In this document: in pieces, positions 4,925 through 30,856 of the stretch
Position numbering within the stretch: position 1 is the stretch's first letter
How the letters are laid out: every line of letters starts with the position of its first letter
Assembly (NCBI RefSeq): GCF_009769755.1
Contig: NZ_SDWJ01000001.1
Span: 682,001-746,000 of the forward strand
DNA length: 64,000 bases
DNA from: Sphingorhabdus profundilacus
GTDB lineage: Bacteria > Pseudomonadota > Alphaproteobacteria > Sphingomonadales > Sphingomonadaceae
Direction: 5' to 3'
Program-made: the position numbers and the translations under genes
The notes under the pieces: generated by a model
The model's input: the letters and a program-made list of their open reading frames with translations, nothing else
Database searches by the model: none
What the model was told of the DNA's origin: nothing

Positions 4925-5485
4925 TTGGCCAATATTTCGATAGAGGATATCGCGCTACGCTGTCACCCGGCAACCCCGCCCTTCATGGCCGACAATATCC
5001 AAGTTGCGATGACGCGGCAGGGCTCAGGTGCGCTATGGCTGCGTTATCATATCGATTGCGATCTGAATTCATTGGAAATTCCGGACACATTGGCCCCGAT
5101 GCGGACCGATGAATTATGGAAAACCACCTGTTGCGAATTGTTCGTGCGACGGGAAACCGGCGATGCGTATCTGGAGTATAATTTTTCGCCGTCCAGCCAA
5201 TGGGCGGCTTATCATTTTGGTGGATATCGTTCGGGCATGACCGAATTGATGACCTATCGTCCGCAAATTTATGGCGATGCCAGCGAAACCCATTTCGCGT
5301 TGGAGGCGGAACTCCAATTGCCGGATGAATGGCGCGAAGGGCCGTTGTGGATCGGCCTGACCGCAGTGATTGCGGAAACCGGCGATACCACATCCTATTG
5401 GGCCTTGACGCATCCCGATGGAAAGCCTGATTTTCATCATAGGGATTGCTTTGCGCTTTATCTGGAGGCACCAAGCGCGGCATGA
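4925..5485 (+). CDS. DOMON-like domain protein coupled to NamZ
   Basis: A protein of about 186 residues, soluble, without signal peptide. The sequence LWYRCELFVRR-like core (visible as [14 protein letters not shown]) followed by [17 protein letters not shown] and [10 protein letters not shown] resembles the DOMON-like family that annotators describe as MurB-associated; this is recollection of the family, not a search result. The start is uncertain: TTG 4925 gives a longer N-terminus, ATG 4985 a product shorter by 20 residues. Its stop overlaps the ATG of the NamZ gene in an ATGA arrangement, which indicates translational coupling and a shared role, possibly carbohydrate or cell-wall fragment handling. 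Confidence 0.6.
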
Positions 5486-6681
5486 AATTTGGAATAGATC
5501 GCCTGCTCACCGAGCCTTCGCTGCGTGCACCGTTACAGGGCAAGCGCATCGCGCTACTCGCCCATCCCGCCTCAGTCACATCGGACCTGACACATAGCTT
5601 CGATGCGCTTGCGGCGTTGGATGATATTAACATTACTGCCGCGTTCGGGCCGCAGCATGGTCTGCGCGGCGACAAGCAGGACAATATGATGGAATCGCCC
5701 GATTTCACCGATCCTGTACACGGCGTGCCGGTGTTCAGTCTCTACGGCGAAGTGCGCCGTCCCACCGCACAATCGATGGGCACATTCGATGTCATATTGA
5801 TCGACATGCAGGATCTGGGCTGCCGTATCTATACCTTCATCACGACGCTGCTTTATATGCTGGAAGCTGCGGCCGAGCATGGCAAATCGGTCTGGGTTCT
5901 CGACCGCCCCAATCCGGCCGGACGGCCCGTTGAAGGGCTGACGCTTTTGCCCGGATGGGAAAGTTTCGTCGGTGCGGGGCCAATCCCGATGCGCCACGGC
6001 CTGACCTTGGGCGAGCTGGGCCGATGGTTTATCGATCATTATAAAATCGATGTCGATTATCATGTCGTCCCGATGGAGGGGTATCATCCCGATGACGCCC
6101 CCGGCTTTGGCTGGCCAGCCGACAGGCTCTGGATCAACCCGAGCCCCAATGCGCCCAATATCAACATGGCGCGCGCCTATGCAGGGACCGTGATGCTGGA
6201 GGGCACGACTTTGTCGGAGGGACGCGGCACCACGCGGCCCCTGGAAATATTCGGCGCACCCGACATCGACGCCCGCGCTGTCATCGCCGAAATGCGCCGC
6301 TTTGCGCCGCAATGGCTGACCGGCTGCACGTTACGCGAAATATGGTTTGAACCGACTTTCCACAAACATGTCCACAGCCTGTGCCACGGCGTGCACATCC
6401 ATGCCGAAGGGGCGTCGTATGATCATCAGGCGTTTCAGCCTTGGCGCATACAGGCGCTGGCGTTCAAGGCGATCCGGGGGTTGTATCCCAATTATGACCT
6501 GTGGCGGGATTTTCCCTATGAATATGAATTGGGGAAGCTGGCGATTGATGTGATCAACGGCGGGACCGGTTTGCGGGAGTGGGTCGATCTTGAAGGTTCT
6601 ACTGCGGACGATCTGGATGCGGTTTGCGGGTCGGATGAGGCGGCTTGGGTTGAGGATCGGGCTGGGTGTTTGATTTACTGA
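5482..6681 (+). CDS. DUF1343 / NamZ-like exo-beta-N-acetylmuramidase
   Basis: About 399 residues with the conserved landmarks of the DUF1343 family: GPQHGLRGDKQD near residue 53, a DLQD-like MQDLGCRIYTF, LDRPNPAGRPVEG, and GTTLSEGRGTTRPLE(I)FGAP in the C-terminal half. Members characterised as NamZ remove terminal MurNAc from peptidoglycan-derived disaccharides. No signal peptide is visible ([14 protein letters not shown]), so it should act in the cytoplasm on imported muropeptide sugars, unlike the secreted Bacillus enzyme. ATG 5482 overlaps the upstream DOMON gene stop by four bases. A longer in-frame start at 5446 lies inside that gene and is less likely. Confidence 0.8.
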   Translation: MKFGIDRLLTEPSLRAPLQGKRIALLAHPASVTSDLTHSFDALAALDDINITAAFGPQHGLRGDKQDNMMESPDFTDPVHGVPVFSLYGEVRRPTAQSMGTFDVILIDMQDLGCRIYTFITTLLYMLEAAAEHGKSVWVLDRPNPAGRPVEGLTLLPGWESFVGAGPIPMRHGLTLGELGRWFIDHYKIDVDYHVVPMEGYHPDDAPGFGWPADRLWINPSPNAPNINMARAYAGTVMLEGTTLSEGRGTTRPLEIFGAPDIDARAVIAEMRRFAPQWLTGCTLREIWFEPTFHKHVHSLCHGVHIHAEGASYDHQAFQPWRIQALAFKAIRGLYPNYDLWRDFPYEYELGKLAIDVINGGTGLREWVDLEGSTADDLDAVCGSDEAAWVEDRAGCLIY

Positions 6682-6688
6682 GGTGGGA

Positions 6689-7257
6689 TTTTTTTCGCTA
6701 GAAGGAAGAAGGCGAAAAGGAAGAAGGCGGCGGCAATTGCATTATCTGCTGCTGTAAACTCGCCGTACGCCATGCCGATACATTTCAGAGCCGAAATTTA
6801 TAACAAGTCCCATGGGCTGATTTAGGAGTTTAACATATGTTTGCGTTTGGCGAATGTGAACGCCCAACAATTTCTCCAAAGCCTTTAATTCCAGGACGAG
6901 CCAGTCATTGACGAAGAGATCAACCCGATCAGCGTTGGCAAAATCCAAACCATCAATTCTAACATCAACTGGCATTTGCCGGACAACTTTCAAGCCTTGG
7001 CGTTTCAATCGCGCTGCCAAAACAGTTTCATAAACGGATTCAAGCAATCCCGGTCCGATTTCCTTATGCAGATGATAGCCCGCATCAATTACGGCTGCCA
7101 AGTGATCCTCTTGCGATTTCTTTAACAAAACAAATCTCGTGTAAAACGTCGCATGTACGGACTCGCACAAAACCGACCGCCAATCAACACAATGATTTGT
7201 AAGTATTAAACTGCCGTCTTCTTCCTTTTTGTCTTTTTCCTTCTAGCGAAAAATAAA
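6689..7257. mobile_element. GxxExxY cassette bounded by a GA-rich inverted repeat
   Basis: The left arm (about 6691-6733, TTTTTCGCTAGAAGGAAGAA, then GGCGAAAAGGAAGAAGGCGG) and the right arm (about 7212-7255, whose complement reads TTTTTCGCTAGAAGGAAAAA, then GACAAAAAGGAAGAAGACGG) form an inverted repeat with roughly 33 of 38 aligned positions identical beyond the T run. Only one gene, a GxxExxY protein, lies between the arms. A shorter, gene-less relative with the same TTTTTCG...AGAAGGA edge lies at 30748-30856. The arrangement suggests a mobile or formerly mobile cassette; I see no transposase and could not identify a target-site duplication. Confidence 0.5.
6742..7170 (-). CDS. GxxExxY protein (PDDEXK_3-type nuclease-like fold)
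   Basis: A protein of up to 142 residues carrying the defining motif GLLESVY (G41, E44, Y47), preceded by the typical HKEIGPG helix end. Further on, D84 in RVDLFV and E94-x-K96 in LVLELKAL make a D...ExK pattern, consistent with the PD-(D/E)XK nuclease-like fold to which this family has been assigned. No biochemical role is established. The longest frame opens at TTG 7170; no ATG is available before the core, so the exact start is uncertain. The stop lies only a few bases from the left GA-rich inverted-repeat arm. Codon use looks more AT-rich than in neighbours such as the NamZ gene. Confidence 0.75.
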   Translation of the reverse strand: MCESVHATFYTRFVLLKKSQEDHLAAVIDAGYHLHKEIGPGLLESVYETVLAARLKRQGLKVVRQMPVDVRIDGLDFANADRVDLFVNDWLVLELKALEKLLGVHIRQTQTYVKLLNQPMGLVINFGSEMYRHGVRRVYSSR

Positions 7258-7291
7258 AGCAGCGAAAAAAACTGTCAGCAGCAAAGCCCGC

Positions 7292-8476
7292 TCAATGCCC
7301 ATGCTTCCGGCTCAACTCCCGCATAGCATCATCCAGCCCCTCCAGCGTCAGCGGATACATCCGGTCGTTGATCACTTCCTTGATGATCTTGGTCGATTGC
7401 GAATAGCCCCACTGCTTTTCGGGCACGGGGTTCAGCCACACAGTGGCGGGGTAGGTGTTGCTGATCCGGTGGAGCCAGACCGCGCCCGATTCCTCGTTGA
7501 AATGTTCGACCGAGCCTCCCGGATGCGTGATTTCATAAGGGCTCATCGATGCATCGCCGACCAAGACGACTTTATAATCATGCGGGAATTTGTGCAGAAC
7601 GTCCCAGGTCGGTGTGCGCTCCGCGAAACGGCGCTTATTGTCTTTCCACAGTCCTTCATAGGGGCAGTTGTGGAAGTAGAAAAATTCCAAATTTTTGAAC
7701 TCGCTCGTGGCCGCACTGAATAATTCTTCACATAATTTGATGAAGGGGTCCATGGACCCGCCGACATCCAGCAACAGGAGCACCTTGATCGCATTGCGCC
7801 GTTCGGGCCGCATCTGGATATCCAGCCAGCCTTTACGTGCCGTGCCATTGATGGTGCCGTCGATATCCAGCTCTTCGGCTGCGCCATCGCGCGCAAAGCG
7901 GCGCAGGCGGCGCATGGCAATCTTGATGTTACGGGTGCCGAGTTCACGGGTGTGGTCGAGATTCTGGAATTCGCGCTTTTCCCAGACTTTGACCGCGCGT
8001 TTATGCTTTGATTCTCCACCGATGCGGACGCCTTCGGGATTGTAACCGGAATTGCCATAGGGCGATGTGCCGCCGGTACCGATCCATTTGCTGCCGCCCT
8101 GATGTCGCTTTTCCTGCTCTTCGAGCCGTTTTTTCAGCGTATCCATCAGCTCGTCCCAACTGCCCATCTTTTCGATTTTGGCCATTTCCTCGGGCGACAG
8201 ATATTTTTCGGCAATCGCCTTTAGCCAATCGGATGGGACATCAATGGGATTCTGACCATATTCGGTAAAGATGCCTTTGAACACTTTGCCGAAAACCTGG
8301 TCGAACCGGTCAAGCAGCGCCTCGTCCTTTACCAATGTGGTGCGGGCAAGATAATAGAATTCCTCGGGATTCTGGGCGATAACGTCCGCTTCAAGCGCTT
8401 CCAGCAGGGCGAGATGTTCCTTGAGCGATGCGGATATTCCCGCGGTACGCAATTCGTCCATGAATGAAAAAAACAC
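7292..8476 (-). CDS. VWA-domain (CoxE-like) protein
   Basis: A 394-residue cytoplasmic protein that ends in a von Willebrand A domain. The metal-ion-dependent adhesion site is LLDVGGSMD (about residue 237, the DxGxS motif), followed later by VVLVGDASMSPYE. The N-terminal half is charged and contains a conserved-looking DHTRELGTRNIKIAMRRLRRFAR stretch, as in proteins that partner MoxR-type AAA ATPases. Such a MoxR gene lies at 10021-10869 on the same strand, separated by a chemoreceptor gene on the other strand. GTG 8476 with upstream AGGG is preferred since it keeps the family-like N-terminus MFFSFMDELR; ATG 8461 is the alternative. Confidence 0.8.
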   Translation of the reverse strand: MFFSFMDELRTAGISASLKEHLALLEALEADVIAQNPEEFYYLARTTLVKDEALLDRFDQVFGKVFKGIFTEYGQNPIDVPSDWLKAIAEKYLSPEEMAKIEKMGSWDELMDTLKKRLEEQEKRHQGGSKWIGTGGTSPYGNSGYNPEGVRIGGESKHKRAVKVWEKREFQNLDHTRELGTRNIKIAMRRLRRFARDGAAEELDIDGTINGTARKGWLDIQMRPERRNAIKVLLLLDVGGSMDPFIKLCEELFSAATSEFKNLEFFYFHNCPYEGLWKDNKRRFAERTPTWDVLHKFPHDYKVVLVGDASMSPYEITHPGGSVEHFNEESGAVWLHRISNTYPATVWLNPVPEKQWGYSQSTKIIKEVINDRMYPLTLEGLDDAMRELSRKHGH

Positions 8477-30727: not shown

Positions 30728-30747
30728 ACCATGCCGGAGCAGGGGAA

Positions 30748-30856
30748 TTTTCGTCGAAAGGAATAAGATAAAGAAGAAAAAAGGCGCTGCCTTGCAGCAC
30801 ACAATTTTCCCTTATTCTTCCTTATTGCCTTTTTCCTTCTGACGAAAAAACAAGGC
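30748..30856. repeat. Gene-less relative of the GxxExxY cassette inverted repeat
   Basis: The left edge starts TTTTCGTCGAAAGGAATAAG and the right edge, read on the complement, starts TTTTTTCGTCAGAAGGAAAA. Both have a TTTTCG(T/C) start followed by purine-rich AGAAGGA-type repeats, as in the arms at 6691 and 7212. Only about 20-30 bases separate the arms. It lies between the rhomboid gene and the DUF4170 gene, so it could also act as a bidirectional hairpin; a T run follows neither side in textbook form. Confidence 0.5.

Follow-up and report, generated by a model that had tools for sequence, protein, structure and literature searches.

HUH, DDE and Cas1 enzymes are known routes of DNA movement with which other candidates can be compared. 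RAYT proteins are HUH tyrosine transposases, and this enzyme defines their family; Rpn (YhgA-like) proteins are of PD-(D/E)XK nature. In the parts of PMC8049555 considered here, the RAYT gene is portrayed as a mostly vertically inherited chromosomal gene with repeats of its own, the REPINs being commoner where the gene is present, and the system as not seen on plasmids. The Coxiella S23 intervening sequence (IVS), as described in the relevant section of PMC4990558, is 428 nt long, has a 28-bp stem and tandem heptamers, and is excised by RNase III. Cas4 nucleases are defined in the section used of PMC5704561 by four conserved cysteines for an Fe-S cluster, and an excerpt of PMC3466216 gives the D99A mutant of Cas4 SSO0001 as inactive. 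Rpn proteins have been studied for RecA-independent transfer (PMC5350276, available sections), and in the main text of that paper no mention of an "inverted repeat" was found.

The locus considered here lies in a 64,000-nucleotide stretch of Sphingorhabdus profundilacus DNA (contig NZ_SDWJ01000001.1, positions 682,001 to 746,000), hereafter the window, and consists of a GxxExxY gene between two inverted arms (Table 1). A search of the open-access literature, with subscription literature outside its scope, found no prior description of a GxxExxY cassette and nothing relevant for the arm repeat strings; the name GxxExxY occurs in two open-access papers and PF13366 in one.

The window cassette and its predicted nuclease

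Table 1. Features of the cassette, its neighbours and the gene-less arm pair, in window coordinates
Feature	Position	Strand	Remarks
Flanking gene	5446..6681	+	presumably DUF1343-like; convergent with right-hand neighbour; both abut in relatives without the cassette
Left inverted arm	6691..6731	+	GA-rich; T-run from 6689; internal 15-nt direct repeat; 37/41 identical to the right arm's reverse complement
GxxExxY / PDDEXK_3 gene	6742..7170	-	142 aa; G41-E44-Y47, D84, E94-x-K96, Q108-x3-Y112; genus relatives under purifying selection
Right inverted arm	7213..7253	-	pairs with left arm
Flanking gene	7292..8476	-	open reading frame, taken to be VWA-domain; abuts the 5446..6681 gene in cassette-free relatives
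Gene-less inverted arm pair, window arm type	about 30747..30850	.	about 103 bp

The cassette occupies positions 6691-7253 (563 bp) and has a G+C content of 44%, versus 59% and 54% in the neighbouring genes. Its arms, 41 nt each, align in inverted orientation with a score of 31; when the same geometry was placed at random 3000 times in the window, two placements reached 15, and the one reaching 31 is presumably the element itself. Between the arms there is no open reading frame of 80 codons or more apart from the GxxExxY gene, which has a TTG start. An Rfam scan of window positions 6000-8000 returned only a sub-threshold match, to CyVA-1, which lies on the right arm and scores 21.5 bits against a gathering threshold of 41.4. 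A preliminary description of this DNA had claimed inverted repeats of about 40 bases, a single gene between them and a GxxExxY identity for its product, and all three were borne out. The notion of a single odd cassette had to be corrected, since three further GxxExxY genes were found in this genome, and all four lie between inverted arms whose sequence differs from gene to gene. The window gene and its arms are almost certainly one unit.

The window protein matches PF13366 (E 3.5e-31) and TIGR04256 (GxxExxY; E 2e-30), with scores of 108.4 bits against a cut-off of 22 and 105.5 bits against one of 35 that place it in the GxxExxY/PDDEXK_3 family, and no Pfam family besides PF13366 is matched at E <= 1. 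Its AlphaFold model has a pLDDT of 94.6. In a fold search of the PDB, all four matches at E <= 0.001 are Cas4 chains (best E 3e-4), with LHK-Exo (6e-3) and lambda exonuclease (0.1) further down; the query TM among the Cas4 matches is at most 0.5, and the resemblance of the modelled protein to PDB folds is distant. Its aspartate, ExK and QxxxY residues align with the RecB-type set of Cas4 SSO0001 in a weak sequence match (E 0.26), and the predicted fold together with these motifs places it among RecB-type PD-(D/E)XK proteins. Modelling thus gives, with confidence, a RecB/Cas4-like nuclease for the window protein. An identity as Cas4 itself was rejected for want of the conserved cysteine set: in an alignment of 60 sequences, none of the columns that are invariant or nearly so is a cysteine. 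GxxExxY proteins are like Cas4 and other RecB-type nucleases in a distant fold likeness and in the D, ExK and QxxxY motifs, and unlike them in lacking that cysteine set and in having inverted arms of their own. They resemble Rpn proteins in being nuclease-type, although the two belong to separate Pfam families (PF13366 versus PF04754).

Occurrence and structure of the arms

The preliminary description treated gene and repeats as a unit, and arm scores supported this in two samples of loci. In the genus and phylum sample, made up of the best-scoring loci (best 30 per search, fewer than all match places), 61 loci were taken, six with short flanks were dropped, and 46 of the 55 scored, the four genes of this genome included, had an arm score of at least 18, versus 0/220 shifted controls. 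A search of genome contigs with the single window protein as query gave no matches; an alignment query gave at least 567 relatives, and from the best 80 of these four were dropped, leaving 76 testable named loci. Arm scores of at least 18 were reached at 58 of the 76, versus 0/282 shifted controls, and with the bar lowered to 14 at 68, versus 2/282. The shifted control was used because a control of mismatched flanks (51/956 at 18 or more) was unclean, relatives sharing arms. Sphingomonads, Verrucomicrobiota, Planctomycetota, deltaproteobacteria and Bacteroidota are among the named loci that pass 18; one Acidobacteria and one cyanobacterial locus score exactly 18, and the two testable Chloroflexi loci fall below the bar at 17 and 16. 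The arms are not universal, since 9/55 and 18/76 loci in the two samples miss a score of 18. The median cassette length is 474 bp (112 elements), and the arms of a named locus of Sphingorhabdus rigui (L250) match those of two genus loci (L039 and L040).

The commonest arm consists of about three tandem 8-bp units, CRCNNAGR, and reads about TTCACGCnnAGrCGCnnAGrCGCnnAG. The window arm is a GA-rich variant that was missed by the strict unit pattern, and the arms of the window and of several clades fit CRCNNAG inexactly. Units are similar inside one element and different across elements: agreement in the nn dinucleotide is 0.60 within an element versus 0.18 between elements or after shuffling (83/112 elements, 478 units). 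The two arms of an element are likewise more alike (identity 0.90) than same-side arms of orthologous elements (0.81), in 28/32 pairs and at 9/11 sites, in a comparison for which arms were located by maximising left-right similarity, which favours high left-right identity, and which left out L030 (arm score 12.5), L117 (no arms), L120 (a different gene clade at the site) and two near-duplicates, L051 (of L024) and L039 (of L040).

A constraint acting on an RNA stem predicts mismatches that favour G-U and are evenly spread. Wobble-type mismatches between arms numbered 92 versus 114 (p 0.14), and the mismatch rate followed the unit column, being 2-3% at C, C and G, 5-6% at R, N2 and A, 16% at N1 and 23% at the last R, with a mild bias from a motif search that fixed the conserved columns of one arm. 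Recognition of DNA by a protein fits better because the mismatches are neither G-U-biased nor evenly spread, and the arms as an RNA stem were rejected on the same two observations. One alternative is that the element acts at the level of RNA, as in the S23 intervening sequences of 23S rRNA, with the arms forming a transcript stem cut by RNase III. Its layout and size do resemble the Coxiella S23 IVS (PMC4990558, in the parts considered), and in the phylum sample S23-family genes, too, are bordered by tandem-unit inverted repeats (14/28 versus 0/56 controls). The mismatch pattern weighs against this reading, as does the location of four genus sites (A, B, C and D) and of the window site, which, where flanks were compared, are gene junctions and not rRNA, and we regard it as improbable. 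The nuclease bound to its own repeat that had been proposed beforehand is the best reading of how the arms evolve, as judged from matched arms, unit agreement and mismatch columns, and the arms are quite probably DNA sites for the GxxExxY protein. A search for covariation between residues and units gave matches confounded by ancestry, with no residue tied to arm sequence independently of it.

Sites, inheritance and gene-less arm pairs

Across the genus, in a collection of one genome per species, 19/45 genomes carry a GxxExxY gene (PF13366), with up to six matches per genome. At the window site, flanking matches lie at most 130 bp apart in 28/44 genus relatives; in the others the flanks are further apart, on different contigs or not both found, and two such gaps were read. 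In the three relatives closest at the window locus (L114-L116; window 6682-7291) another gene, which we take to be DUF418-like and which has 445 codons in G003, replaces the cassette. From these states of the relatives' flanks there is therefore no clean pre-insertion junction at this site, and no movement between strains was seen. None of the PF13366 match places listed for the genus lies there, so that no GxxExxY gene of a genus relative shares this position, in keeping with the mobile cassette proposed earlier. The window gene groups inside a clade whose other members (in G003, G018, G021 and G022) occupy site D, a site that in G000 holds gene-less arms only. Its clade membership and off-site position suggest a relocation, as read from the gene tree, although a tree in which the site-D genes group to the exclusion of the window gene is not rejected (p_AU 0.073; when L121 is included, p_AU is 0.021).

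Other sites vary in occupancy. At site A the neighbouring genes have an overlapping stop and start in G003, G004 and G019 and are separated by a cassette in G000, G018, G024 and G030; site B likewise holds a cassette in some species, its junction being tightly closed in others, and at site C, depending on the species, there is a gene facing one way or the other, a gene-less pair of 49 bp, or no arm at all. A tree that keeps the site-B genes together to the exclusion of site A was not rejected (p_AU 0.146). Descent is mainly vertical because genes at one site form near-perfect clades, with 12 site-label changes for 12 sites (minimum 11). The genus cassettes, being mostly vertical at fixed sites, are therefore low-mobility elements, not active jumpers. 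Vertical inheritance at a conserved site had been named beforehand as the outcome that would speak against a mobile cassette; it is largely true of the other genus cassettes, but the window copy sits off its clade's usual site. The target duplications that the preliminary description had suggested looking for did not appear, the 112 elements doing no better than shuffled pairs, and a DDE insertion sequence or MITE was rejected for lack of them. Two loci (L169, at G016:C34, and G022:C76) have split GxxExxY matches, apparently broken genes that show signs of in-place decay.

These patterns of inheritance bear on the possibility that the GxxExxY gene is domesticated and autoregulated, the arms being operators for a protein that the host retains for some task of its own, for example defence or repair, while the cassette hardly ever moves. 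Mostly vertical descent at fixed sites, two arms that stay matched and purifying selection on the gene (dN/dS 0.03-0.28 in 5/16 gene pairs, these five being the pairs of genus relatives that are not saturated) are all in keeping with such a role, as is rarity on plasmids and phages, where a search with one query found 8/72,556 plasmids and 0/50,697 phages; two loci with a GxxExxY gene are on viral contigs. In addition, Rpn, a nuclease family once linked to mobility, has been described as toxin-antitoxin phage defence (PMC10327210, in the sections consulted). Domestication is at odds with the patchy presence of the gene in the genus, with its occurrence at 12 or more sites there and with arm pairs that lie away from any gene, and an operator pair would have no need to be inverted around an entire gene; we consider it unlikely, if worth keeping in mind.

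Gene-less arm pairs were found, so that arms occur both with and without the gene. The gene-less element that had been reported 23.5 kb away does exist (Table 1) and is the weaker of the two, its score of 17 being reached by 9/3000 random placements, and an ungapped repeat finder did not detect it. Its right arm carries the exact arm consensus given in the preliminary description, and in three close relatives the corresponding position is without such a pair, though it offers no clean junction. Within the window, the 16-nt consensus with 3 mismatches has 7 matches versus 3.35 expected, a mild enrichment. The 21-nt window-arm pattern with at most 3 mismatches has 22 matches in the 2.9-Mb genome versus 0 for a backward control. 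In the genus this pattern has 10-22 matches in all five genomes that carry the window gene clade, 19 in G004 and 8 in G019, two genomes in which site D retains arms without a gene, and 0-5 in each of the remaining 38; the backward control has 0-5, with 5 in G003. Arm-rich genomes are 5/5 with a clade gene versus 2/40 of the others (p 1.7e-5), in counts that include the cassette's own arms and for a clade that was defined after the tree. The expected pattern of an autonomous unit with gene and a miniature without fits the window clade, and it failed elsewhere: gene-less copies of the L121 arm, predicted beforehand for that lineage, were not found (G030, whose site-D gene L121 lies just outside the window clade, has 2 window-arm matches), nor were those of the L036/L054 arms, a second prediction. 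Distinct gene-less arms best match the cassette of their own genome in only 14.2/48 cases, although taken as a whole the match comes first among 120, the G018 arm register being approximate.

It may also be asked whether the arms are a foreign MITE or REP family, moved by some other transposase, with the GxxExxY genes as mere passengers. The exact unit pattern does occur in 16/168 genomes that have no PF13366 match, and the same junctions are crowded with palindromic repeats of other kinds. The same survey of 200 genomes nevertheless finds it in 18/32 gene-bearing genomes, and outside family f21 in 3/6 versus 6/147 (p 0.003); within f21, where arms and gene are both most abundant, the two are not associated (15/26 versus 10/21, p 0.35). 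This co-occurrence of arms and gene, arms of gene-specific sequence on both sides of the gene in different phyla, and the lack of a second open reading frame of 80 codons between the window arms make a foreign origin very improbable. Among the genomes surveyed, G200 is without a PF13366 match and has 111 exact arm-unit matches, and G196 has a tandem array of a CACAAAGG unit. Palindromes of the GTCACCCTGAACTTGTTTCAGGGTC and GTCGCCCCAGCG types occupy the same junctions as the cassettes (L170-L180, L021, L133) and sit even inside gene-less arm pairs.

A proposed mechanism and comparison with known systems

How might a single nuclease-like protein account for these arrangements? The RecB/Cas4-like PD-(D/E)XK protein quite probably binds the units of both arms as DNA, and the bound protein would draw the cassette ends together and cut or nick there. 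Rarely, such cutting could move or copy the cassette into intergenic gaps, and in some lineages a gene-less arm pair may be moved or copied in trans to such places; repair would then close the insertion site without a target duplication. Otherwise the cassette would be inherited vertically at fixed gene junctions and sometimes lost or shrunk to its arms. We give about even chances to the reading of a compact one-gene cassette that has its own DNA recognition sites and is RAYT/REPIN-like, driven by an unrelated nuclease. That the GxxExxY protein itself causes the movement is put forward tentatively, at slightly short of even chances. More doubtful again, though a serious possibility, is the general proposal that GxxExxY proteins are enzymes of a widespread class of mobile cassettes. 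Each cassette would depend on one RecB/Cas4-like nuclease, which would recognise the inverted arms with their tandem 8-bp units, change its specificity along with the drifting units, and spread both its own gene and arm pairs without a gene, leaving no target duplication.

If this proposal is true, a nuclease-like family of several phyla to which no function is assigned gains a testable job, and the CACGAAG/CGCAGAG-type repeats dispersed in some genomes are accounted for. A PD-(D/E)XK route of low-rate DNA movement would join those of the HUH, DDE and Cas1 enzymes, and the drift of unit sequence across elements would be a natural series for how a nuclease shifts its DNA target.

The cassette has the layout of the S23 IVS (PF05635), which in the available account has about 430 nt, inverted tandem-unit ends, one small gene and suspected mobility (PMC4990558). 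The two differ in that their proteins are unrelated, the S23 units are about 7 bp and the classic S23 cases are located in rRNA. An S23 IVS element was rejected for the window, where the protein is PF13366 and the site lies between two protein genes, with no PF05635 match in the genome. In the sample of 30 S23 / four-helix-bundle loci (L264-L293), of which two were dropped and 28 were testable, the repeat units found at half were often of 7 bp, read from the arms as GGCAGTA, GTGAGTA, GGCAATA and GGCGAAT. Two unrelated small genes, GxxExxY and S23, are thus found in one common cassette layout.

In its way of working the cassette is like RAYT/REPIN, with which it has in common a chromosomal gene that mostly descends vertically and has repeats of its own, inverted pairs that lack the gene, and repeats that are commoner where the gene is present. 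Dispersed gene-less pairs, as in RAYT/REPIN, were found for the window arm type and not for two other arm types. Unlike RAYT/REPIN, GxxExxY combines a PD-(D/E)XK nuclease fold with arms of tandem units, and has up to six gene copies per genome and far fewer repeats. The HUH enzyme is absent from the window protein, whose only match at E <= 1 is PF13366 and whose top folds are Cas4. The cassette is filed as a new kind, with the reservation that it works like RAYT/REPIN and has an S23-type layout.
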